Source of the DNA: Deltaproteobacteria bacterium
Lineage (GTDB): Bacteria > Desulfobacterota > Syntrophobacteria > BM002
Reading direction: 5' to 3'
Length of the DNA stretch: 64,000 bases
Assembly: GCA_022340905.1 (NCBI GenBank)
Contig: JAJDNB010000084.1
Location: 1-64,000, forward strand
Made by a program: the position numbers and the translations under genes. The notes under the pieces were generated by a model. It did no database searches. It was not told the origin of the DNA and saw only the letters and a program-made list of their open reading frames with translations. The stretch's first letter is position 1, and every line of letters begins with the position of its first letter. Of this stretch, positions 25,350 through 42,770 are shown piece after piece.

Positions 25350-25427
25350 GTAGTCTAGAGATATTCTTTTATATTCTCCGGCTTTTTGGCTGGGGAGCTG
25401 CTGCCAGGAGCAAAGGAACTCAGAGCC

Positions 25428-27173
25428 ATGGTTGAAAAAGCTCTCCCGTCCGAGACCAGTATTTTACACGGGCAATTCAGCCAGCTTTTGGAAAATCTCG
25501 GTATTGGTGTTTTCACCGTTGATATGGAACGGAGGATCACCTCATTCAATGAAGCTGTGCAGCGCCTCACTGGGCTCAAGGAAGAAGAGGTCTTAGGCAA
25601 GAAGTGTTACGAGATTTTTTTCAGCGACCTGTGTCATGGCCAGTGTATGTACAGCGATGCGGTAAAAGCAAGTGGCAAGCCCCTGGCCTTCGATATGGAG
25701 ATTTACGACGAAAGTGGCAACAGACGCCACATTACCAAACTTGTTTCCCCTCTTTTCACTGGGGACGGCAGGGTGAATGGTTGCATCGAGATATTTCAGG
25801 ACCTCTCAGTTTACAGTGAACTATTAAACCGGATTCGTTATGACGAGCACAGGCTTAAACTCATTCTGGACAATTTGGACATTGGGATATTTACAGTAAA
25901 CCGGGGTGGTCACATAACTTCGTTCAATTCAATGGCCGAGTCTATTACAGGCTACAAGCGTCAAGAGATTCTTGGCCAGCATCACGCCAAGCTTACAGGT
26001 TGCAATCTGCCTGGAGAGACCTGCAGTCTGGAGGAATCAATCCTTAGCGGTAAGGTCCTGGCAAATCTCCACCGGCGATTATTTACCAAAGACGGCCGTA
26101 AACTGCCTATCCGCGCCAACTTCATGGCCCTCCGGAATGAAGGGGGAGAAATTATAGGTGGACTAGAGACCTTCCAGGATCTTTCTCTAATCCAGCAGCT
26201 CAACCGTGCCATAAGCAATAAATACACCTTCGCCGATATGATCGGCAAAGATGGAGTAATGCAACAAATCTTTGAGATTCTTCCTGTGGTTGCCGAAAGT
26301 GAAGCCAATGTTCTCGTCGAAGGCCCCACCGGCACGGGCAAGGATCTCCTGGCTAAGATCATCCACAATGCTTCACGGCGAAAAAATAAACCTTTTGTTA
26401 AGGTCAACTGCGCGGCCTTGCCAGACAATTTACTGGAATCAGAGATGTTTGGCTATGTCAAGGGAGCCTTTACCGGAGCGGACCGGGACAAACCCGGCCG
26501 TTTCCAGGAAGCTGACGGAGGGAGCATCTTTCTCGACGAGATAGGTGACATGCCCCTATCCCTTCAGGCCAAACTCTTGCGAGTTTTAGAAGACAGAGAA
26601 TTCTATCCCCTGGGTGGAAGAAAGCTCTGTAGAGTGGATGTGCGGATCATCGCTGCCACCAACCAGATACTTGAAGATCTGGTTAGGGAAAAAAGGTTTC
26701 GCGAAGATCTTTTCTACCGTCTCCATGTGATGCGGCTAGAACTGCCACCTCTGAATGAGCGGCGTGCCGATATACCTCTGCTCATCAACAATTTTGTCAA
26801 GCAATACAACGTCACCAAAGGAGCTTCGGTAACCACAATCGCCGAAGACGCCATGGATATCCTGCTCAATTATGATTATCCGGGCAACATACGTGAGCTG
26901 GAAAATGTCATTGAACACGCCTGTGTGCTCTGCCGGAGCGCAACCATCGAGCGCAGACACCTACCCATGTACCTACAGACTCCCGGTAGCCGCTTGGGGG
27001 AGGACATCGTTTCCAGGACTGATGTGGCCACAGTGCAGCACCAGTGGGAAAAGGAAAGAATAATAGAAGTATTGAAAAAACACCGTTGGCATCGACAACG
27101 AGCTGCCCAGGCCCTGGGCATGGATCGCACCACCTTGTGGCGCAAGATGAAAAGGTATGACATCTCGCCATGA
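25428..27173 (+). CDS. Sigma54-dependent activator with two PAS domains
   Basis: Enhancer-binding protein of 581 residues. Two PAS domains (about 10-125 and 140-255) each hold cysteines in the loop region (FFSDLCHGQCMYSDA; LTGCNLPGETCSLEE), suggesting a redox or metal cue. The AAA+ domain (about 270-500) has Walker A VEGPTGTGKD, the sigma54-contact loop GAFTGA, Walker B GGSIFLDEIGDMPL and the arginine-finger region FREDLFYRLHV. The C-terminal Fis-type helix-turn-helix (RQRAAQALGMDRTTLWRKMKRY) binds DNA. There is no receiver domain. ATG 25428, with AGGA ten bases upstream, is preferred over TTG 25386. Probable target: the operon from 27440. Confidence 0.93.
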   Translation: MVEKALPSETSILHGQFSQLLENLGIGVFTVDMERRITSFNEAVQRLTGLKEEEVLGKKCYEIFFSDLCHGQCMYSDAVKASGKPLAFDMEIYDESGNRRHITKLVSPLFTGDGRVNGCIEIFQDLSVYSELLNRIRYDEHRLKLILDNLDIGIFTVNRGGHITSFNSMAESITGYKRQEILGQHHAKLTGCNLPGETCSLEESILSGKVLANLHRRLFTKDGRKLPIRANFMALRNEGGEIIGGLETFQDLSLIQQLNRAISNKYTFADMIGKDGVMQQIFEILPVVAESEANVLVEGPTGTGKDLLAKIIHNASRRKNKPFVKVNCAALPDNLLESEMFGYVKGAFTGADRDKPGRFQEADGGSIFLDEIGDMPLSLQAKLLRVLEDREFYPLGGRKLCRVDVRIIAATNQILEDLVREKRFREDLFYRLHVMRLELPPLNERRADIPLLINNFVKQYNVTKGASVTTIAEDAMDILLNYDYPGNIRELENVIEHACVLCRSATIERRHLPMYLQTPGSRLGEDIVSRTDVATVQHQWEKERIIEVLKKHRWHRQRAAQALGMDRTTLWRKMKRYDISP

Positions 27174-27403: not shown

Positions 27404-27439
27404 TTATGATCCAGACACAAACCCATTGGAGTGTTTCGG

Positions 27440-29773
27440 ATGAGTGAGTCAGTGAGAGGAAACTCAAATCGAGATTTTCTCAGAAGGTTGAGGCAAAGTC
27501 TCAGTTTTAAATTGGGTCTGGCGGTGGGTTTGATTTTCCTGGTTGCGGTACTTGCCCTCACCTTCTATCTCGTATCGCTCCAAAAAGAGCAAGCTTTTGA
27601 AAGAATGGTGATGAATGTAAACCAGTTTAGTGACACGGTGAAGCGGGGCGCCCACTACAGCATGCTCAAGAACCAGCGGGAGAGTTTGCACAAGATTATT
27701 GAGGCCATCGGTGCCCAGCCGGGAGTGGAGAAGATCCGGGTATTCAATAAGACCGGCGAAATCATGTTTGCCAGCGCGAAAGAGGATATCGGTACTAATG
27801 TAGATCTACAGGCGGAGGCGTGTTATGCCTGCCACCGGCGGGACCAGCCCCTGGAACGGCTGAGCATGAGCGATCGCACCCGAATCTATCGAAGCCCGGC
27901 AGGAAATCGAGTCCTGGGCATGATCAACCCCATATATAATGAGCCCAGTTGCTGGCAGGCTGCTTGTCACTACCATCCAGCGAAGCAGACCGTCCTGGGG
28001 GTCTTGGATATAGGTCTATCGCTGCAGCCTTTAGATCAGGAAATCCTTGCCACCAAGAAGAAGATTATCTTTTTTGCCACCCTCATCTTCATAGGGGTCA
28101 CCGTTATTGTGGCCGGTTGCATCGTCTATTTCGTTAACCGACCCATTCGCCGCCTGGTTTCAGCTACAAAGCAACTCGCAAGAGGTGACTACGAGCAGGA
28201 GGTGAATACCATTACTCAAGATGAGATCGGCGATCTCTCCCGCTCCTTTGACAAGATGCGACAAAACATCAGAGATCAGGCCAATGCTCTCCAGAAAAGC
28301 AAGGAAGAATATCAGACTCTGTTCACACAGGTTCCCTGCCAGATCAGCGTTCAAAACCGGGACTTTCGCATCACCCAAGTGAACAGGGTCTTCGAGGAGC
28401 GCTTTGGGGACTGCCAAGGGGAGTACTGTTACCGGGCTTACAAGGGCAGGGAGGAGAAATGCTTAGTCTGCCCAGTTGAAAAGACGTTCCAGGACGGCCT
28501 GCCCCATTCAAGCGAGGAGACGGTGGTACGCAAAGATGGCACTCTCGCCTATGTTCTTGCTTTTACCTCCCCCATATTTGACGAAGAGGGTAGGGTGGTG
28601 GCTTCCATGGAGATGGCAACGGATATTACCCAGGTGCGGTTGTTGGAACAGGAGCTTAAGCGATCAGAGGAAAAGTACCGGACCCTGTTTAACAGTGATC
28701 CCAACCCTATTTTTGTAGTGAACCTTGACAACTTGGAGATCAAGGACGCAAACGAACGAGCCCTCAAGTTCTATGGTTTCGCCCGGGATGAAATCCTCGG
28801 CAAAAGCTTTCTGGAGCTATCCGAACCCCAGGAATGGGATCGCCTCAGGAAAGTCCCGTGGGAGAGAGAAGGGGCAGTCTACAAGGTGAGACAGCATACT
28901 AAAGAAACTGAATCAATAGTGGTGAACATACGTTACTCTAGCCTTAAAGACATTGGCCAGGATTCCGTTATTGTCACCACCTCTGATGTGACCGAGCGGG
29001 TCAAGAGCGAAGAGCAGCTCATTCAGGCGAGTAAAATGGCCACCTTGGGCGAAATGTCGGCAGGCGTTGCTCATGAGTTAAATCAACCCCTCTCGGTGAT
29101 AAAGACTTCCGCCAGTTTTCTCACCAAGAAGATAGATCGAAACGAGCCAGTGTCTCCTGATATTCTTCGGGAGTTAGCAGCTGAAATGGACAGTCAGGTG
29201 GACCGTGCTTCACTCATTATAAATCACCTGCGCCAATTTGGCCGGAAAACAGACATTCGCAAAGCAAACGTGCAACTTAATGATTGCATTTCCGGGACCT
29301 TCACGGTTCTAGGCCGCCAGTTGGAAGTTCATGGCATCAAGGTAGAACTGGACTTGGAGCAAGAGTTGCCACCAATAAAAGGTGATCGGAACCGGTTGGA
29401 GCAAGTTTTTCTCAACCTCATCATGAACGCCCGTGATGCCATGGATGAAAAGCAGGAGCGAGCGGGACAGGATATTGAAAAAGTACTCAGGATCTCATCA
29501 AGAACTGCAGGCGATCGGGTGCTGGTGGATGTGTCCGATACCGGACCGGGCATGAGCGAAGAGGTGAAAGAGAAGATATTCGAACCTTTTTTTACCACCA
29601 AACCGGTTGGAAAAGGGACCGGATTAGGCCTGTCAATTAGCTTTGGCATTGTGCGGGACTATGACGGCATCATAGAGGTACAAAGTGTCGAGGGTCGAGG
29701 GACCATATTTTCCCTAAGCTTTCCAACGGCGGCAGAAGAAACCCCGGAGCCCAGGGAGGTTGCTAGTGGCTGA
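27440..29773 (+). CDS. Membrane sensor histidine kinase with CxxCH motifs
   Basis: A 777-residue kinase from ATG 27440, with GGAG eight bases upstream. Membrane segments lie at about 17-45 and 207-232. The periplasmic domain between them has EACYACHRRDQP (C128-x2-C131-H132, c-type haem motif) and CWQAACHYHP (C171-x4-C176-H177). Then come a HAMP linker, a PAS domain with a Cys-rich loop (CYRAYKGREEKCLVCPVEK), a second PAS domain, HisKA (MSAGVAHELNQPLSV, His near residue 548) and HATPase with SDTGPGMSEE and GKGTGLGLSIS. No receiver is attached. It is the first gene after the sigma54 promoter; its stop overlaps the next start, so phosphorelay with the receivers downstream is likely. Confidence 0.93.
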   Translation: MSESVRGNSNRDFLRRLRQSLSFKLGLAVGLIFLVAVLALTFYLVSLQKEQAFERMVMNVNQFSDTVKRGAHYSMLKNQRESLHKIIEAIGAQPGVEKIRVFNKTGEIMFASAKEDIGTNVDLQAEACYACHRRDQPLERLSMSDRTRIYRSPAGNRVLGMINPIYNEPSCWQAACHYHPAKQTVLGVLDIGLSLQPLDQEILATKKKIIFFATLIFIGVTVIVAGCIVYFVNRPIRRLVSATKQLARGDYEQEVNTITQDEIGDLSRSFDKMRQNIRDQANALQKSKEEYQTLFTQVPCQISVQNRDFRITQVNRVFEERFGDCQGEYCYRAYKGREEKCLVCPVEKTFQDGLPHSSEETVVRKDGTLAYVLAFTSPIFDEEGRVVASMEMATDITQVRLLEQELKRSEEKYRTLFNSDPNPIFVVNLDNLEIKDANERALKFYGFARDEILGKSFLELSEPQEWDRLRKVPWEREGAVYKVRQHTKETESIVVNIRYSSLKDIGQDSVIVTTSDVTERVKSEEQLIQASKMATLGEMSAGVAHELNQPLSVIKTSASFLTKKIDRNEPVSPDILRELAAEMDSQVDRASLIINHLRQFGRKTDIRKANVQLNDCISGTFTVLGRQLEVHGIKVELDLEQELPPIKGDRNRLEQVFLNLIMNARDAMDEKQERAGQDIEKVLRISSRTAGDRVLVDVSDTGPGMSEEVKEKIFEPFFTTKPVGKGTGLGLSISFGIVRDYDGIIEVQSVEGRGTIFSLSFPTAAEETPEPREVASG

Positions 29774-31394
29774 AGCCAATTTAAAGCGCGTCCTCCTTAT
29801 CGATGACGAAGAGGGTATCAGAAAGGTCATGTCGATTGCCCTCAAGGACGCCGGCTATGTGGTTTGGACTGCCGAAAGCGGCGAGCAAGGGTTGGAAATA
29901 TTCGAACGAGAGAAACCACCGCTTGTTCTTACTGATATCAAGATGCCGGGGATGGACGGTATTGGAGTGCTTCGGCGCATAAAAGAAATGGAGACCGATT
30001 CCGAGGTAATCATCATAACCGGCCACGGCGAGATGGAACTGGCCATCAGCGCCTTGCAGCTGGAGGCCTCAGATTTTATTACCAAGCCCATACATGACGA
30101 GGCCCTGTTTATTTCTCTAAGGCGGGCCGAGGAAAAAATCTCTCTTAAGAGGCAGCTGCGAGATTATACGGAGAACCTAGAGCTGAAGGTCCAAGAGGCC
30201 ACTGCTGAGATCCAGCGTATCAGTGACTTTCAGGCCAACCTCATCGACAACTCCTTGGATGGGATTGTGGCCGGAGATGCAGAGAGAAAGGTTGTTATTT
30301 TTAATGAAAGCGCCCAGCGGCTGACTGGGTACAGGGAGGGTGAGGTGGTGGGGCGGCTCACCCTAGAAGATCTCTATGATAAGGAGATTGTTGATCTTTG
30401 GCTAAGCCGGGAGGGAGAAGCGCCAGACCCCGCAAGTGAAAAGCGTACTAGTCATCTGGATACAACCATCCAGTCTCGGGAAGGAAGAAAAATTCCAATT
30501 CGATTAAATCACACTATCCTACGAAAAGAAGGCCACAAGGTGGGCTGCGTTACCTTCTTCCAAGACTTACGCGAAATTCGCCGCTTGGAAAAACGGCTGG
30601 TGCAATCAGAGCGGCTGGCTGCCATCGGTCAGACCTCGGCCACTATTGCCCATGCCATAAAAAATATAGTGGGTGGTTTGAAAGGCGGGATGTTTGTGGT
30701 CAATAAGGGCTTCGAGCTATCAAACCAGGACTATCTGCAGAATGGCTGGGACATGGTCCAGCGCAACGTTGCCAAGATCTCAAGCCTGGCCATGGACCTG
30801 CTCACCTATGCCAAGGAGCGGAAACCTGAATACCGCTTAGCAGAAGCCAATACGGTGGCGGCGGAGGCTGTGGAGCTCTTAAAAACGAGGGCAGCGGAGT
30901 TCAAGGTGAATCTAACCTTGGAAGCCACAGAGGGGTTGGAGCCGGTTGCAATGGATGTCAGCGGTATTCATCAATGTTTGGTCAACCTGATCAACAATGC
31001 CATTGACGCCTGCTGGCCAGAAATATGTGGCCATGAACAGGGGCAGGTTGCGGTGCGCACTTGTCGCGACCCGGACTGGGCAGTCTGTTTCGAGGTGGAA
31101 GATAATGGTTGTGGAATAGAGGCGAGCAACAAAGAGAAGATCTTCACCAATTTTTTCAGCACTAAAGGGGCTGACGGTACTGGCTTGGGACTGCTCAACG
31201 TCCAGAAAATTGCCCAAGAACACGGAGGTTCTGTTGAGGTTGAATCTGAGCCCGGCAAGGGCTCAGTATTTCGTCTCTTGCTACCCTCGGGACCCAGCAA
31301 GGATACAGAAGATCTCAACGAAAATGGCACAGAGGAGAATGAGAACCAAGAAGCATACTCGGTCGTGGCCCAAGCAGACAGGAGGAAGTCATGA
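29766..31394 (+). CDS. Hybrid receiver-PAS-histidine kinase (cytoplasmic)
   Basis: A 542-residue protein. An N-terminal receiver has a full set of residues (LLIDDEEG, phospho-acceptor in LTDIKMPGMDG, IITGHG, ITKPI). A coiled coil, a PAS domain (about 160-275) and the kinase core (IGQTSATIAHAIKNIVGG; NLINNAIDAC; DNGCGI; GADGTGLGLLNVQ) follow. GTG 29766 is chosen because GGGAGG lies six bases upstream; the upstream TTG 29760 is less well placed. It overlaps the stops and starts of both neighbours. The receiver-first order suggests it accepts phosphate from the membrane kinase and passes it to the lone receiver at 31988 or the receiver inside HdrA. Confidence 0.92.
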   Translation: MAEANLKRVLLIDDEEGIRKVMSIALKDAGYVVWTAESGEQGLEIFEREKPPLVLTDIKMPGMDGIGVLRRIKEMETDSEVIIITGHGEMELAISALQLEASDFITKPIHDEALFISLRRAEEKISLKRQLRDYTENLELKVQEATAEIQRISDFQANLIDNSLDGIVAGDAERKVVIFNESAQRLTGYREGEVVGRLTLEDLYDKEIVDLWLSREGEAPDPASEKRTSHLDTTIQSREGRKIPIRLNHTILRKEGHKVGCVTFFQDLREIRRLEKRLVQSERLAAIGQTSATIAHAIKNIVGGLKGGMFVVNKGFELSNQDYLQNGWDMVQRNVAKISSLAMDLLTYAKERKPEYRLAEANTVAAEAVELLKTRAAEFKVNLTLEATEGLEPVAMDVSGIHQCLVNLINNAIDACWPEICGHEQGQVAVRTCRDPDWAVCFEVEDNGCGIEASNKEKIFTNFFSTKGADGTGLGLLNVQKIAQEHGGSVEVESEPGKGSVFRLLLPSGPSKDTEDLNENGTEENENQEAYSVVAQADRRKS

Positions 31395-31873
31395 TTGAAT
31401 ATCAAAACATTCTGTATTGCAGTGATTTTTCTGAGGAGGCAGAGATGGCATTCCATCACGCCGTAGACTTCTGCCAGCGGTATAACGCTAAGCTTCATCT
31501 ACTCCATGTGCTGCACTCAGGATACAAGTACATGCGTCACGTGGTGGATGAGTATGTCGACCCCAGTAAGGATGAAGAAGTTGCAGACGATACGCTGATC
31601 AATCAAGCGGAGGAAGACCTCAAGTCTAAGTATGGAAGCCGGTTGGAAAATTGTAATCAGGCTGTCTTCGCAGTTCGAGTAGGGGTTCCCTTCGTGGAAA
31701 TTGTTCGCTACGCCAGAGAGCACAAGGTGGATTTCATCATCATGGGTGCTTCGGGTAGCTCGGAGTTGGACAAGCAGACCTTCGGCAGCACGGTGGAAAA
31801 TGTCGCCAGGCGGGCACACTGCCACGTGATGGCCATCCGCAACCCGGAGCTGGCCTTTAAGCTCCCCGACTGA
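31391..31873 (+). CDS. Universal stress protein (UspA family)
   Basis: A 160-residue UspA-fold protein. It begins IEYQNILYCSDFSEEAEMAFHHAVDF and has the ATP-binding pattern GASGSSELDKQTFGSTVENVARRAHCHV (shown in part) with G-x2-G-x9-G-S. ATG 31391 overlaps the stop of the hybrid kinase by four bases. Usp proteins bind ATP or other small molecules and tune metabolism under starvation or redox stress. Here its place between kinases and Hdr genes suggests a role in the same response. Confidence 0.92.
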   Translation: MIEYQNILYCSDFSEEAEMAFHHAVDFCQRYNAKLHLLHVLHSGYKYMRHVVDEYVDPSKDEEVADDTLINQAEEDLKSKYGSRLENCNQAVFAVRVGVPFVEIVRYAREHKVDFIIMGASGSSELDKQTFGSTVENVARRAHCHVMAIRNPELAFKLPD

Positions 31874-31987: not shown

Positions 31988-32386
31988 ATGAAGAAAAAGA
32001 GGATCTTGGTGGTGGATGACGAGCTGGACATGCGCACCTTCATCACCACTCTGCTAGAGACCAGTGGCTACAAACCGATTATCGCCATCAACGGAGAAGA
32101 GGGCATTCTCAAAGCCCGGGAGAAAAAACCGGCGGCAATTATCCTCGATGTGATGATGCCCCGAGAGGGCGGGATCCAAATGTATCGGGAACTGAAAACT
32201 GATGAGCAACTCAAGGATATTCCGGTGATTATGCTGTCGGCCATAGCCAAAAAGACCTTTTTCCATTCCCAACAAGTGCTAAATACCTATAGAGGACAAA
32301 AGGTTCCAGAGCCGGCTGCATACATAGAGAAGCCGCCGGAGACCGCGGAGCTTCTCCAGATTCTCGAACAGTGTCTCGGTTGTTAG
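31988..32386 (+). CDS. Stand-alone response-regulator receiver
   Basis: A 132-residue single-domain receiver with VVDDELD acid pair, phospho-acceptor aspartate in IILDVMMPREGG, the serine of IMLSAI and the lysine of YIEKPPE, so it should be phosphorylatable. It has an insertion (AKKTFFHSQQVLNTYRGQKVPEPA) between the switch serine and the lysine. No output domain. AAGGAGA six bases before ATG 31988. It may be a phosphate shuttle between the two kinases and the Hdr-linked receiver. Confidence 0.9.
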   Translation: MKKKRILVVDDELDMRTFITTLLETSGYKPIIAINGEEGILKAREKKPAAIILDVMMPREGGIQMYRELKTDEQLKDIPVIMLSAIAKKTFFHSQQVLNTYRGQKVPEPAAYIEKPPETAELLQILEQCLGC

Positions 32387-36390: not shown

Positions 36391-37536
36391 ATGGCAACCA
36401 CAGTGAAAATACCGATAAAAGATCAGAACTTGGTCAGTTCTTTACAGGATTTTTTCAAGGCAATGCTGCGGGACGGAGGCATAAACGGTCTCATGGTGGC
36501 CCAACACCTGCCGACGAAAAATTCAGTGATGCCCACGTTAGTGACAGACCCGGACAAGCTCGATACTGCCGATCCACTAGCACCCGTTTTTCCTATTAAC
36601 GCAGCTAAAGTGGTTTCAAAGCTTACCAGAAAACCTCTCGGGGGGAAGGTGGCAGTTGTGCTTCGGCCCTGCGAGATCCGGGCCTTCATTGAGTTGGTGA
36701 AATTGAAGCAAGGGAGAGTCGATGACGTCGTCCTTATCGGGATGGACTGTCTGGGCGCATACAGCAATGTCCAATATCCTGATTTTGCCGGTGATAACGG
36801 CATGGAGGCAACCTTGAGGTTTTACCGCAACATTCAAGAAGGCAAGGGAACGGCTTGCGATGGCTTTGATGTTTCACCTGCCTGCAAGGCCTGCGAGCAT
36901 CCCATACCGGAAAATGCTGATGTGCTCATTGGCTTAGTGGGTGTGGACCTCAAAGATCACCTGCTGGCGAAGGCCAATACACCTCGAGGAGAGGAGCTGT
37001 TGGAAAATCTCGGGCTGTCCTCTACCAGTGAGCCGGAAAAACGGGGGAAAGAGATAGAAAAACTGGTGACAGAACGGCTGTCATATCGTGACCAGATGTT
37101 TGTTGAGACCAGTGAGGCCACAGCAGACGTGGGGAAGCTTGTGAGTTATCTCGGCAACTGTGTCAATTGTTACAACTGCCGGGTGGCTTGCCCTGTTTGC
37201 TATTGCAAAGAGTGTGTTTTTCTCACCGATGTCTTCGACCACGAACCTTCGCAATATCTGAGATGGGCAAAGCGCAAGGGCATCCTAAAAATGCCCACAG
37301 ACACGGTCTTCTTTCATTTGACCCGCATAGCTCACATGAGTACGGCGTGTATCGGTTGCGGCCAGTGTTCCAATGCCTGTCCCAACAATATACCCGTAAT
37401 GGAGCTATTTCGAACCATGGCACACTACACGCAGACGGCCTTTGATTATGTAGCCGGACGGAGCCTAGAGGACGACCCTCCATTGTCGGTATTTCGGGAA
37501 GATGAATTCCAGGAGGTTGTGGCGAAATCACACTAG
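36391..37536 (+). CDS. FrhB/FdhB-like iron-sulfur flavoprotein subunit
   Basis: A 381-residue protein related to the beta subunit of F420-reducing hydrogenase and formate dehydrogenase. The N-terminal part shows KVAVVLRPCEIRAFIELVKLKQ and GMDCLGAYS. A Cys-rich stretch NCVNCYNCRVACPVCYCKEC and the ferredoxin motif CIGCGQCSNACPNNIPV close the protein. No FdhA or hydrogenase large subunit is adjacent, so the partner is unclear. It could carry FAD and donate electrons from NADH or F420-like cofactor, or be a docking subunit. GGAGGG precedes ATG 36391. It follows mvhD by 39 bases. Confidence 0.88.
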   Translation: MATTVKIPIKDQNLVSSLQDFFKAMLRDGGINGLMVAQHLPTKNSVMPTLVTDPDKLDTADPLAPVFPINAAKVVSKLTRKPLGGKVAVVLRPCEIRAFIELVKLKQGRVDDVVLIGMDCLGAYSNVQYPDFAGDNGMEATLRFYRNIQEGKGTACDGFDVSPACKACEHPIPENADVLIGLVGVDLKDHLLAKANTPRGEELLENLGLSSTSEPEKRGKEIEKLVTERLSYRDQMFVETSEATADVGKLVSYLGNCVNCYNCRVACPVCYCKECVFLTDVFDHEPSQYLRWAKRKGILKMPTDTVFFHLTRIAHMSTACIGCGQCSNACPNNIPVMELFRTMAHYTQTAFDYVAGRSLEDDPPLSVFREDEFQEVVAKSH

Positions 37537-37539
37537 TTG

Positions 37540-37690
37540 TTCACGGACGATATCCGTGAACACGCATAGCGCATGGCGCCTGGGGAGATAATTTCGAATT
37601 TCGGATTGCGAATTTGAAAGACAGAGGGCAGGGATCAGAGCTCGGAGGTCGGAAAGCAATCGATTGAGCATTTCGGATTTTAAGATAATC
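37540..37690. repeat. Composite element inside the Hdr operon (families B, D, E)
   Basis: ACGCATAGCGCATGGCGCC, AATTTCGAATTTCGGATTG, GAGGGCAGGGATCAGAGCTC and GGAGGTCGG. It fills a 227-base gap between the FrhB-like gene and the receiver-carrying HdrA gene and gives a false extension from 37701. A short inverted pair TTCACGGA/TCCGTGAA lies at 37540-37560. Confidence 0.7.
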
Positions 37691-37763: not shown

Positions 37764-40700
37764 ATGAGAAAAAAGATAGGATCAGCCTTGGTGGTGGGAG
37801 CCGGAATCAGCGGTATTCGCTCCGCTTTGGATTTGGCAGAACTTGGCTACCAAGTAAAGCTCATTGACCGAGCACCGAACTTGGGAGGAACTCTTACGCA
37901 GCTTGACTACCAATTTCCCAGTGACCACTGCGGCATGTGCAAGATGCTGCCTCTGGTAGAACGGGATTCTTCTTCCCAATACTGCCTGCGCAAGGGGCTC
38001 TTTCACCAAAACATCGAGATAATGCTCAACACTGAACTGGTGGAAATGGAGGGTGAGCCCGGCAAATTCGAGGTCACCTTGCGACAGAGACCTGCCGTAG
38101 TAGACCCAGAACTTTGCATTGGTTGCGGAGAATGTAGTCGCGTTTGCCCGGTGGAAGTTGCAGACGAGTTCAATGCCGGATTGGCCAAGAGAAAAGCGGT
38201 CTATCTGCCAGTGCCCCACAACATTCCTAATAACTACGTAGTCGACTTGGATTCCTGCACCATGTGTGGCGAGTGTGAAAAGATTTGTCCCACTGGGGCC
38301 ATCGATTTCCGCTGGGAAGCACGGAGTCAATTTAAAATCCTGGTGGTAGATGATGAACTCATTGTGCGGGACTCGCTCAAAGATTGGCTGATCGAGGAGG
38401 GATTTGATGTTGACACGGCGGAATCCGGCCCCGCCGCTTTAGAAAAGATCGCCAAACAGCCATACCATCTGATGCTCCTTGACATCAAAATGCCAGAGAT
38501 GGATGGGGTCGAAGTATTGCAGCGGGCTAAGGACATGCGGCCCGAACTTCCGGTGGTGATGATGACGGCGTACGCCACGGTGGAAACAGCAGTGGAGGCC
38601 ATGAAGATTGGAGCTCTTGACTATCTGATGAAACCCTTCGATCCAGATACCCTTGTTCCTCTGGTGGTTAAACTCTACGAGAACTTAGAGCGGGCGGGGG
38701 AGCTTAAGATGGAAGTCGGGGCGGTTATCCTGGCCGCGGGCTTTGGCTCCTTTGATCCGGCAGGAAACGGTTTGAACACGTACGGCTACGGTGAGATTCC
38801 CAATGTAGTTACCAGCATAGAGTTCGAACGGATAGTAAGTGCCAGCGGGCCCTCTCAGGGTAAACTGGTGCGTCCCAGCGATGGCAAAGAGATTCGCAAA
38901 ATAGCCTGGCTTCAATGTGTGGGTTCCAGAGACATGCACGCAGATGCGGACTACTGCTCCTCCATCTGCTGTATGTTCTCCGTCAAAGAAGCACTGCTTG
39001 CCAAGGAGAGAAGCAATGGTCAGGTGGAGGCCGCGATCTTCTATATGGATATGCGAACTTTTGGCAAGGATTTCCAACGGTATCGGGACGAGGCAGAAAA
39101 GACATATGGGGTTAGGTTTCAGAGGAGCAGAGTTCACTCGGTGGAACAGAAGGAATTGGGAGGAGACCCGCGAATCGTCTACACGGATATCACGGGGACG
39201 GGACGGGAGGAGATTTTTGACTTGGTGGTACTTGCCGCCGGCCAAAGACCACCTGCTGGCAGCGATGTCCTGGCGGAAACGACCGGAGTTGAATTGAATC
39301 AATGGGGGTTCTGCCAATTAAAACCTTTTTCTTTAAGTCTAACCAGCCAGGATGGGGTATACGTTGCCGGCTCCTTTTCGGGCCTCAGGGATATCTCCGA
39401 ATCAGTAATTCAGGCAAGTTCCGCCTCCTTGAGGGCTTCCGGTCTGATACATTCAAAGGGTGGAGGCCTTGCCGAGGCCAGTGAATCAAAGGTTGCCTTT
39501 CGTGACGTATCCCGCGAACCGCCTCAGGTCATGGTGGCTCTCTGCACCTGCGGCGACACCTTCACTCAGGCAGTTCAAATAAAAGAGGTGGAATCCTTTG
39601 TTTCGAATCTCGACTCCGTCAGCCATGTGCATCGCTTTGGAAGTATTTGCACGCAAGAAGGTTGGAATCAGCTTGAGCAAGCTATGGAAGCAAGCGGGGC
39701 AAACCGTCTCCTCATTGGGTCCTGCATGCCCTACCTTTACACGAGAAAACTTCGTGACCTGGGTGCAAATATAGGACTAAATCCTGCGCTCATGGAGGTT
39801 GTGGATATCCGGAGTTCCGTGTTTCCTGGAAATAACTCTAGCCAGGAGCAGGCGAGCCGGGAGATTCGGCTGGCGCTGTCCATGGGAGTGGGCAAACTCA
39901 AGGGGATGGACCCTTCGGTCTCGACCGGTACCCCCATTGCTCAAAAGGGGCTGGTGGTGGGCGGTGGGATAGCCGGTATGACTTCGGCATTGGGCATTGC
40001 TGAACATGGTTTCGAGGTTTTCTTGGTGGAAAAAACGGAGGAACTTGGGGGTAATCTCCGGCACCTCTATCGGACCCTCGAGGGCAACTCACCCCAGGAA
40101 CTCTTGGAGCAGACGATCTCCAAGGTTCAAAGACATCCCAATATTCACCTGCACATGAATTCAAGGGTGCTCCATTCTCACGGTAGGGTTGGACGGTTCA
40201 TTACTACCATTGAGAAAGAAGACGGCTCAGGTGAGACCCTTGAGCATGGGGTCACAATTCTGGCAACGGGAGGCAAAGAGGCCACCACCGAGTCCTACGG
40301 CTATGGTCAAAGTGACATCATTGTTACCCAACACCAACTGGAGGAACAGCTCCATTCAGGTCAAATAGATCCTGCGGAGTTGGGCGTAGTTGCCATGATT
40401 CAATGCGTAGACTCACGGGAAGAGCCGCGGAACTACTGCAGCAGGATATGCTGTAGTTCGGCGCTGAAAAACGCCCTCTATTTAAAAGAACAAAATCCAG
40501 AGATCGATATTTATATCCTTTACCGAGATATTATGGCCTATGGATTTCTCGAGACTTATTACACCCAGGCGCGGCAGGCGGGGGTGATTTTCATTCAATA
40601 CGACGTAGACGACAAACCGAAGGTTAACATAGAAAATGGCCGTGTCTCGGCTGCTGTCACTGATCCAATCCTGGGCCGGGAGGTGGTGGTGGAGACTGAT

Positions 40701-41195
40701 CTGTTGGTGCTCAGTACCGGCATTGCTCCCGAGGGGCAAGGGAAGTTGGCAGAAATATTCGGGGTTGAAACAAACCAGGACGGCTTCTTTCAGGAGGCGG
40801 AGTATAAGTGGCGACCGGTGGATTTTCTTAGAGAAGGAGTTTTCACCTGCGGTATGTCGCATTCTCCGCGGAACATTACCGAATCCATTGCCATGGCGGA
40901 GGCAACTGCACAGCGAGCACTTAGAATTCTTGCCAGCGAAAGACTGACTGCGGGCAGCACAGTCGCTGAGGTGCGCTACAGCCTTTGCTCACTGTGCGAG
41001 AAATGCATTGAAGCCTGTCCTTATGGAGCCAGGTGGCGAGATGAAGATGAAGAAAAGATAATGGTTGATGAGCTGAGCTGCCAGGGGTGTGGTTCCTGTG
41101 CGGCCGTTTGTCCCAACAGCGCCTCGGTTCTCCGTGGCTACCGGGATCAACAGATCTTCTCAGTGATTGATGCAGCACTGGAAGAGATTTTCTAA
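37764..41195 (+). CDS. Tandem double HdrA flavoprotein with an internal response-regulator receiver domain
   Basis: A 1143-residue protein from ATG 37764 (GAGG nine bases upstream). The first HdrA half has VVGAGISGIRSALDLAELG, DHCGMCKML, CIGCGECSRVCPVEV and CTMCGECEKICPTGA. At residues 190-308 a complete CheY-like receiver is inserted: VVDDELIVRD (acid pair 196-197), LLDIKMPEMDG (Asp240), MMTAYA (Thr268) and MKPFDPD (Lys290). HdrA then resumes (VGAVILAAGFGSFDP, LQCVGSRD, YCSSICCMFSVK). The second HdrA copy starts near 586 (VMVALCTCGDTF), with FAD site VVGGGIAGMTSALGIA near 731 and two terminal ferredoxin motifs (CSLCEKCIEACPYG, CQGCGSCAAVCPNSA). All four receiver residues are intact, so phosphorylation could gate electron flow. 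The second half lacks its own internal ferredoxin pair. Confidence 0.93.
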   Translation: MRKKIGSALVVGAGISGIRSALDLAELGYQVKLIDRAPNLGGTLTQLDYQFPSDHCGMCKMLPLVERDSSSQYCLRKGLFHQNIEIMLNTELVEMEGEPGKFEVTLRQRPAVVDPELCIGCGECSRVCPVEVADEFNAGLAKRKAVYLPVPHNIPNNYVVDLDSCTMCGECEKICPTGAIDFRWEARSQFKILVVDDELIVRDSLKDWLIEEGFDVDTAESGPAALEKIAKQPYHLMLLDIKMPEMDGVEVLQRAKDMRPELPVVMMTAYATVETAVEAMKIGALDYLMKPFDPDTLVPLVVKLYENLERAGELKMEVGAVILAAGFGSFDPAGNGLNTYGYGEIPNVVTSIEFERIVSASGPSQGKLVRPSDGKEIRKIAWLQCVGSRDMHADADYCSSICCMFSVKEALLAKERSNGQVEAAIFYMDMRTFGKDFQRYRDEAEKTYGVRFQRSRVHSVEQKELGGDPRIVYTDITGTGREEIFDLVVLAAGQRPPAGSDVLAETTGVELNQWGFCQLKPFSLSLTSQDGVYVAGSFSGLRDISESVIQASSASLRASGLIHSKGGGLAEASESKVAFRDVSREPPQVMVALCTCGDTFTQAVQIKEVESFVSNLDSVSHVHRFGSICTQEGWNQLEQAMEASGANRLLIGSCMPYLYTRKLRDLGANIGLNPALMEVVDIRSSVFPGNNSSQEQASREIRLALSMGVGKLKGMDPSVSTGTPIAQKGLVVGGGIAGMTSALGIAEHGFEVFLVEKTEELGGNLRHLYRTLEGNSPQELLEQTISKVQRHPNIHLHMNSRVLHSHGRVGRFITTIEKEDGSGETLEHGVTILATGGKEATTESYGYGQSDIIVTQHQLEEQLHSGQIDPAELGVVAMIQCVDSREEPRNYCSRICCSSALKNALYLKEQNPEIDIYILYRDIMAYGFLETYYTQARQAGVIFIQYDVDDKPKVNIENGRVSAAVTDPILGREVVVETDLLVLSTGIAPEGQGKLAEIFGVETNQDGFFQEAEYKWRPVDFLREGVFTCGMSHSPRNITESIAMAEATAQRALRILASERLTAGSTVAEVRYSLCSLCEKCIEACPYGARWRDEDEEKIMVDELSCQGCGSCAAVCPNSASVLRGYRDQQIFSVIDAALEEIF

Positions 41196-41337: not shown

Positions 41338-41904
41338 ATGAGCGAAGAGACAAGAGAACTATCCGAGGGTCACGCCGAGGAAGATTTAATGGCCGCCATC
41401 CGGGAAAACATTAAAGCGTGCATGCAGTGCGGCACCTGCACCGGTTCTTGCGGCAGCGCTTATGCCATGGATTTCACCCCTAGGCAAATGTGGCGAATGG
41501 TTCAACTTGGCATGGTAGATGAAATCTTTAATAGCCGGACCTTTTCCCTTTGCTCAAGTTGCTATTACTGCACCTTGCGCTGTCCGCGGGGCTTGCCTCT
41601 GACAGAGAGCATTCATGGTTTGAAGCAACTGGCTGTAGCCAAGGGAGTTGCAGAAAAAAAGGGAGCACGTTTCTACCAGACTTTTCTTGACACGGTCAGA
41701 CGCTATGGCCGGGTGAGGGAGATGGAGCTCATGGCCAGGTACTTTATTGCCATGAAGAGTCCCGTACTCCCTCTGAGTTTCACCCCTCTCGGCATGAAAC
41801 TTATGATGAAAGGCAAAGTCTCACCTGAAATGCCGCAATTCTTTAGGCCAGGGAAGTTGGACGGTATCTTTCGCAAGGTAAAAGAACTGGAGGCACGTTC
41901 ATGA
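41338..41904 (+). CDS. hdrC: HdrC-like iron-sulfur subunit
   Basis: A 188-residue subunit with two [4Fe-4S] motifs, CMQCGTCTGSCGSAYAMD and CSSCYYCTLRCPRGLPL, plus the helical segment DFTPRQMWRMVQLG and a C-terminal membrane-like but charged stretch. It transfers electrons from HdrA to HdrB. AAGGAG is nine bases before ATG 41338. The stop overlaps the hdrB start (ATGA), so they are translationally coupled. Confidence 0.95.
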   Translation: MSEETRELSEGHAEEDLMAAIRENIKACMQCGTCTGSCGSAYAMDFTPRQMWRMVQLGMVDEIFNSRTFSLCSSCYYCTLRCPRGLPLTESIHGLKQLAVAKGVAEKKGARFYQTFLDTVRRYGRVREMELMARYFIAMKSPVLPLSFTPLGMKLMMKGKVSPEMPQFFRPGKLDGIFRKVKELEARS

Positions 41905-42770
41905 AATACTTCTATTACTCCGGATGTTCTTTGGAGGGCACTGCGCTCGAATATGACATCTCCACCCGAGCGGTCATGCAAGCACTGGGAGTAGAACTGA
42001 TCGAGTTGGATGATTGGACCTGCTGCGGCGCCAGTGCAGCAGAGGCGGTCAGCGAGCTCCTTTCAATGGTACTTCCGGCTCGCAATCTGGCTTTGGCTGC
42101 AAGAATGGATCAAGACTGTGATTTTGTGATCCCCTGCAGTGCATGCTACCTCAATCTCAGGAAGGTAGACGAGCACCTAGATAGGGACGAAGGACTCCGA
42201 GAGAAAATCAATGCTGTCCTGCAGGAAGAGGAATTAAGCTACAAAGGAGGCATCAAATCTCGCCATTTGTTGGATGTACTTGCTACCGATATTGGTGCCG
42301 AGATGATCAAGGCTAAGGTAAACCGCAAGCTGTCAGGGCTGCGCATCGCTCCATATTATGGGTGTCAAGCCTTACGTCCTTACGGGGGCTACGACGACCC
42401 GGAAGAACCTCGATGTATGGAGCCGTTGATCGAGGCTCTTGGTGCAGAGGTGCATCCTTGGCCAATGGGTGCCAAATGCTGCGGTGCCGGGCTCATGACC
42501 ACTAAGAAAGAAATCGCCCTTGAACTAACTGGTGAGCTGTTGAAGGCAGCGAAAGGGGCCGACTGTATTGCTACAGTATGTCCCATGTGCCAAATGAACC
42601 TAGATAGCTATCAGAAAAAGGTGTCCCAGGTCAAAGGTGAAGACTTGAGAATCTCGGTTCTCTATCTACCCCAGCTAATTGGTATGGCTTTTGGACTAAA
42701 CGCAGAGGCTCTAAAATTAGATCTCAATATGGCTTATACTGATTCTTTACGAACAAAGCTCAAGAATTGA
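41901..42770 (+). CDS. hdrB: HdrB-like catalytic subunit (CCG domains)
   Basis: A 289-residue subunit with two CCG motifs: the first begins YSGCSLEG, continues WTCCGASAAE and ends PCSACYLNL; the second has YYGCQALRP, AKCCGAGLM and CPMCQMNLDSY. In methanogens this site reduces the CoM-S-S-CoB disulfide through noncubane clusters; the bacterial substrate is unknown, with DsrC-type or other disulfides and a menaquinone link among the proposals. Last gene of the operon; a perfect terminator starts 16 bases after its stop. Confidence 0.95.
   Translation: MKYFYYSGCSLEGTALEYDISTRAVMQALGVELIELDDWTCCGASAAEAVSELLSMVLPARNLALAARMDQDCDFVIPCSACYLNLRKVDEHLDRDEGLREKINAVLQEEELSYKGGIKSRHLLDVLATDIGAEMIKAKVNRKLSGLRIAPYYGCQALRPYGGYDDPEEPRCMEPLIEALGAEVHPWPMGAKCCGAGLMTTKKEIALELTGELLKAAKGADCIATVCPMCQMNLDSYQKKVSQVKGEDLRISVLYLPQLIGMAFGLNAEALKLDLNMAYTDSLRTKLKN

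Follow-up and report, generated by a model that had tools for sequence, protein, structure and literature searches.

The locus considered here raises the question of whether a phosphorylation signal can act directly on a bifurcating enzyme. Electron bifurcation is a central energy-coupling step in many anaerobes; to our knowledge, little has been established about the control of flux through it. In the window (the whole 64,000-nucleotide stretch of DNA that was analysed), one gene encodes a tandem HdrA with a CheY-like receiver domain in its first half, referred to below as REC-HdrA. The following sections examine whether this receiver is genuine, where it came from, and what it may do.

The receiver-bearing HdrA and its gene cluster

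The features of the protein are as follows.

37764..41195, + strand: tandem HdrA with receiver (REC-HdrA), 1143 aa; open frame, Pfam/NCBIfam matches, orthologues
38115..38288, + strand: inserted ferredoxin domain of the first HdrA half; two CxxCxxCxxxC motifs, residues 118-175
38331..38693, + strand: receiver domain, residues 190-310; PF00072 E=1.5e-31, AlphaFold2 fold, active site in orthologues
38349-38354 (Asp196/197), 38481-38483 (Asp240), 38565-38567 (Thr268), 38631-38633 (Lys290), + strand: receiver active-site codons
39525..41192, + strand: second HdrA half (N-terminal Fe-S domain, second FAD domain, C-terminal 2x[4Fe-4S] ferredoxin); alignment to 5odc/8rvu HdrA, motifs

The frame is uninterrupted from ATG to stop. 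Pfam recognises four Fer4 motifs and FAD/NAD Rossmann domains, and HdrA2 (NF040770) matches under the NCBIfam cut-off. There are two FAD motifs (GAGISG at residue 12, GGGIAG at 733) and four CxxCxxCxxxC motifs (residues 118, 165, 1075 and 1106); a thioredoxin-reductase-like FAD-binding domain with GxGxxG and an inserted 2x[4Fe-4S] ferredoxin, the hallmarks of an HdrA, are thus both present. By phmmer, the HdrA of PDB 5odc aligns in four stretches (E=3.7e-128): residues 8-185, 314-464, 585-798 and 957-1137 of REC-HdrA correspond to 146-313, 317-465, 2-216 and 465-648 of 5odc HdrA. This pattern identifies REC-HdrA as a fused pair of HdrA units and, together with the motifs, bears out the sequence-only reading of a tandem protein with two FAD sites. 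The first half has the FAD domain, the inserted ferredoxin domain and the equivalent of Cys197 (residue 59), and is devoid of the N-terminal domain. The N-terminal Fe-S domain (588-722) and the C-terminal ferredoxin (1063-1143) are found by alignment to 5odc in the second half only, which has no cysteine in the Cys197 position. Judging from its family, REC-HdrA would perform flavin-based electron bifurcation. Several other tandem HdrA proteins are encoded in the host genome, all without a receiver, so that REC-HdrA is a special copy there. Three HdrA paralogues in genome G000 (C215:2255-2797, C244:1259-1792 and C160:941-1459) are interrupted close to the first FAD domain by a single in-frame TGA and are possibly selenocysteine HdrA proteins, which are known in Db. 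autotrophicum.

Within the first half, the PF00072 match spans residues 192-298. NCBIfam assigns the receiver to the NtrC/AtoC type, and its catalytic set is complete (D196, D197, D240, T268, K290), every key residue lying where it had been placed from the sequence alone. In the AlphaFold2 prediction, residues 191-310 make up a whole (beta-alpha)5 receiver of five strands and five helices, with a pLDDT of about 90. A chance or spurious match was considered and is ruled out by the E-value, the fold prediction and the conservation described below. In the alignment, the insertion point falls between 5odc HdrA residues 313 and 317; the receiver therefore does sit, as proposed, between a ferredoxin motif and the resumed HdrA fold, directly after the last cysteine motif and at the C-terminal joint of the inserted ferredoxin domain. 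Both joints are short in the AlphaFold2 model. On the ferredoxin side, helix 184-188 leads nearly linker-free into strand 191-195; on the FAD side, helix 294-310 leads into strand 312-318, with which the chain returns to the FAD domain. Receiver and HdrA elements are separated by only one or two residues. Compared with solved HdrA structures, this model of a single chain without cofactors or partner subunits gives TM-scores (by target length) of 0.76 for 8rvy_A (Elp-Hdr state 1), 0.74 for 7bkd_A (Fdh-Hdr-Fmd) and 0.59 for 8rvu_A (Elp-Hdr state 2); as modelled, REC-HdrA is closer to the former two than to state 2. The inserted ferredoxin domain is where low-potential electrons are anticipated to leave the methanogen enzyme, and the polyferredoxins MvhB/FmdF dock on it (PMC12350162).

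The gene lies in a cluster with the following further members.

27431..29773, + strand: membrane histidine kinase, HAMP-PAS-PAS-HisKA-HATPase with two TM segments; orthologues beside REC-HdrA
29760..31394, + strand: REC-PAS-HATPase kinase; co-located homologues
31391..31873, + strand: universal stress protein (UspA-like); translation, BLAST homologues
31988..32386, + strand: stand-alone receiver; PF00072
32429..35815, + strand: HdrL, an HdrA with an NfnB/GltD-type NAD(P)H domain inside its ferredoxin domain; Pfam/NCBIfam, cf. PMC2702500, PMC9012536
35929..36351, + strand: MvhD/FlpD; PF02662 E=9.7e-53
36391..37536, + strand: FrhB/FdhB-like flavoprotein with Fe-S motifs; PF04432
41338..41904, + strand: HdrC; Fer4_17, conserved position
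41901..42770, + strand: HdrB, two CCG domains; PF02754
42786..42806, + strand: terminator-like hairpin closing the cluster; 8-bp GC stem, then TAAGTTTTTT

The HdrB, HdrC and MvhD partners thus lie near REC-HdrA (from 41901, 41338 and 35929, respectively), and the order hdrL, mvhD, frhB-like, hdrA, hdrC, hdrB is the same in orthologues. On the same strand 5' of hdrL stand the membrane kinase, whose periplasmic part carries two putative heme-c motifs (CXXCH at 131 and CX4CH at 174), the REC-PAS kinase, the universal stress protein and the stand-alone receiver. Between the frhB-like gene and REC-HdrA lies a perfect 9-bp inverted repeat without a T-run (37539-37561, GTTCACGGA-cgata-TCCGTGAAC). Directly 5' of the membrane kinase gene, 25386-27173 encodes a protein that resembles sigma-54 activators, has apparent PAS domains and lacks a receiver; it is likely to be a regulator of the cluster.

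Origin and conservation of the receiver

Of 98 related genomes, 26 have the unbroken architecture; it also occurs in 15 of the 395 genomes of an even draw across the phylum Desulfobacterota and in some 30 named records, and is shared by many sulfate reducers and syntrophs. The genomes that encode it include the single-contig G002 and G047 and those of two isolates, Desulfoferrobacter suflitae and a putative Syntrophobacter fumaroxidans (G047). A tree built from HdrA columns alone, to the exclusion of the receiver, unites all receiver-bearing proteins in one clade (SH-aLRT 99); the nearest receiver-less proteins, L029 and L030, branch outside it. This implies a single gain; as far as the tree can tell, the receiver entered HdrA once, in Desulfobacterota, and no loss is seen inside the sampled receiver clade.

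The five catalytic residues are invariant in all 25 intact full-length orthologues, as are most of the residues around them, and the active site is intact across about 37 orthologous loci in total. Among the intact orthologues, the mean identity of the receiver is 66.6%, and that of the five HdrA segments 66.0, 54.8, 34.4, 53.5 and 59.7%; its conservation equals that of the best-conserved HdrA segment.

This simple picture is complicated by eight proteins of the Desulfovibrio type, in which the active site is damaged. They form one clade (support 100) nested inside the intact ones (96), which points to one loss. Asp196 is retained in four of the eight, Asp197 in none, Asp240 in seven, Thr268 in one and Lys290 in five; the expectation that the conserved Asp would never be lost thus stands for all intact orthologues and for most of this clade at Asp240, and gives way here for the acidic pair and the Thr. 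The receiver is the least conserved segment in the damaged clade (44% identity). Its fold persists, with a Pfam match of E=6.9e-14 in L027 and a pLDDT of about 86 at the receiver in the AlphaFold2 model of L046. The sequences indicate that phosphorylation chemistry is under strict constraint in most lineages and that one lineage carries a pseudo-receiver; because the receiver is kept there with a dead active site, a phosphate-independent role is possible.

Some further observations concern individual loci. In seven members of the damaged clade (L170, L171, L172, L046, L027, L021 and L032), the HdrL homologue is an HdrA of normal length (about 670-730 aa) without the NfnB-type insert, and hdrB is followed by a USP-domain protein without a receiver (a double USP in L021). 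The REC-HdrA gene of G006, a MAG of the same genus assembled as a single contig, is in two pieces 650 kb apart (C1:1200625-1201158, L115, and 1848168-1848677, L041), each of which includes some of the receiver segment, owing to either rearrangement or misassembly. A receiver-HdrA contig in a Candidatus Latescibacterota MAG (L028), 69% identical to the window protein, is probably misbinned or a recent transfer.

The HdrA receivers are closest to those of NtrC-family regulators, with identities of up to 58% within the host genome; several related NtrC-type regulators have their genes beside the hdr operon in divergent orientation. A tree of nearby receivers, for which the alignment is short and many forks are unresolved, recovers the HdrA receivers as a single group (98) next to NtrC-type regulators. 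Two proteins of 441-444 aa with a receiver between two USP domains are encoded next to the hdr operon.

L013:15169-16500, - strand: USP-receiver-USP protein
L159:11695-13017, + strand: USP-receiver-USP protein

The receivers of the two USP-receiver-USP proteins found beside the operon in L013 and G376 nest among the HdrA receivers, each joined to the HdrA receiver from its own genome (SH-aLRT 90 and 83), which suggests either domain copying or gene conversion. Among the 395 genomes, such a protein was seen in G376 only. In L013 the receiver of this protein is 75% identical to that of HdrA, and the two hardly differ in helix 1, at which kinases dock. In view of this similarity, the simplest reading is that the two would share a kinase.

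The sequence-only reading had asked whether REC-HdrA always co-occurs with histidine kinases. A co-oriented kinase before hdrL or after hdrB is indeed present at 19 of the 25 intact loci with enough flank; none was found in the flanks read at the other six (L013, L018, L026, L043, L045 and L160), and the rule that the receiver always has a neighbouring kinase is rejected. The putative S. fumaroxidans (L160) and Desulfoferrobacter are among these six exceptions; the S. fumaroxidans genome encodes 27 kinases (PMC3570798). At the catalytically damaged loci the count is 0/8, with a hybrid kinase in divergent orientation or none seen, one locus having only 1.1 kb of 3' flank. Loss of the active site may therefore go with loss of the operon kinase; since the damaged clade represents one event, the correlation is suggestive and not proof. 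Both receiver-less sister loci (L029 and L030) have a co-oriented kinase, and in both a PAS kinase and a stand-alone receiver directly follow hdrA, so the two-component module was probably in the operon before the receiver was inserted.

Possible roles of the receiver

The preferred reading, to which we assign a probability of about one half, is that kinase-driven phosphorylation of Asp240 tunes the exit of low-potential electrons through the inserted ferredoxin arm. REC-HdrA would act as the core, bifurcating subunit in a soluble HdrL-MvhD-FrhB-HdrA-HdrC-HdrB complex; its presumably phosphorylatable NtrC-type receiver was inserted once, in Desulfobacterota. Asp240 would be phosphorylated by a kinase, most likely one from the same cluster; the candidates here are the membrane kinase with its two putative heme-c sensor motifs and the REC-PAS kinase. 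The resulting change in receiver shape may be transmitted through the two short joints (helix 184-188 and helix 294-310), so as to reposition the inserted ferredoxin domain or alter its docking, and low-potential electron transfer out of HdrA would be raised or lowered. In favour of such gating are the complete and invariant active site, the single gain, the association with kinases, the location at the anticipated electron exit, the short joints and the kinship with USP-receiver-USP proteins; against it are the tolerance of a dead active site in the Desulfovibrio-type clade and the six intact loci without a co-oriented kinase. The gating interpretation offered earlier from the sequence remains plausible, if unproven, and is better supported than sequence alone could show. 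It may tentatively be extended to a two-component system that directly gates a flavin-based bifurcating complex, in which a membrane, probably heme-containing kinase would phosphorylate HdrA and, in some genomes, also the USP-receiver-USP protein.

Persistence of the fold without catalytic residues (L027, L046) also suits a different role, in which the receiver is an assembly or docking module and phosphorylation, or the fold alone, controls dimerisation, partner binding or localisation of the Hdr complex instead of electron transfer. The helix 4-strand 5-helix 5 face, which is the dimerisation face of NtrC-type receivers, is highly conserved in the intact clade. Unless phosphorylation drives assembly, however, such a role leaves the invariant Asp pair, Thr and Lys of that clade unexplained, and we consider it unlikely, if the most serious of the alternatives.

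Information might also flow the other way, the receiver serving as a phosphate sink or as a reporter of Hdr redox state or abundance to the kinases, so that gene expression follows the enzyme. The cluster has the kinases and stand-alone receivers for this, several genomes add sigma-54 regulators with receivers of the same family, and a USP-receiver-USP protein would compete for the same kinase. The position of the receiver in the middle of a catalytic subunit suggests instead an output to the enzyme, which makes this reading improbable.

Other domains have been accommodated in the same ferredoxin region (the NfnB-type insert of HdrL in the window and those of ANME-1 HdrA9-11, PMC9012536), as would be expected if the receiver were a neutral insertion, tolerated at a domain joint with little effect. 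Against this, it is among the most conserved segments, its active site is invariant in 25/25 and it was never lost in the sampled clade; neutrality is very hard to credit. That REC-HdrA is an assembly join of two genes, conceivable in a MAG fragmented into 278 contigs, has a negligible probability and is rejected, as the same unbroken architecture recurs in dozens of independent assemblies, including the two single-contig genomes and the D. suflitae isolate.

If the preferred reading, gating of electron exit by phosphorylation, is true, the cell could adjust the low-potential electron branch ahead of transcription, and phosphorylation may directly switch core energy metabolism in sulfate-reducing and syntrophic bacteria. 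The natural series of receiver-less, active and catalytically dead HdrA proteins makes direct phospho-control of bifurcation testable, also in the cultured organisms Syntrophobacter fumaroxidans and Desulfoferrobacter suflitae.

Comparison with known systems

The claim that no system of this type has been described holds for the receiver-bearing HdrA, of which no description was found in the literature searched (mention in the reviews Pereira 2011 and Appel 2021 is possible). It does not extend to the operon or to HdrA with other inserts (HdrL, ANME-1 HdrA9-11 with NfnB), which have been described. What is new is the combination of HdrA and receiver, each part (an HdrA with an inserted domain, a receiver with enzymatic output) being known already.

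REC-HdrA is 25-28% identical to the HdrA of HdrABC-MvhAGD, Fdh-Hdr-Fmd and Elp-Hdr (PDB 5odc, 7bkd and 8rvy). It shares with them the thioredoxin-reductase-like FAD domain, the N-terminal Fe-S domain and the inserted and C-terminal ferredoxin domains, and differs in having two HdrA units per chain and a receiver after the inserted ferredoxin. Fused HdrA proteins with two HdrA units per polypeptide, complementary for the N-terminal domain and Cys197, are known from ANME (HdrA3/4) and from the Moorella MetFV-HdrABC-MvhD (PMC9012536). The halves of REC-HdrA are complementary in the same way; unlike ANME HdrA3/4 as described there, they are in reversed order and a receiver is present.

The hdr cluster of the window has the same gene set as locus VIII of Db. 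autotrophicum HRM2 (hdrL-mvhD-fdhB-hdrA4-hdrC-hdrB); according to the figure legend, the genes drawn beside that locus include those for a response regulator, a histidine kinase and a CheY-like regulator (PMC2702500). The text of that paper does not mention a receiver in HdrA4, which is compared with REC-HdrA here by its description alone. Like HdrL and ANME-1 HdrA9-11, REC-HdrA has a large domain in or at the inserted ferredoxin domain; whereas theirs is an NfnB-like redox insert, that of REC-HdrA is a signalling domain. With NtrC/AtoC-type receivers (PF00072) it shares the fold and all catalytic residues, but where those regulators have a sigma-54 activator as output, the output of REC-HdrA is an electron-transfer flavoprotein.
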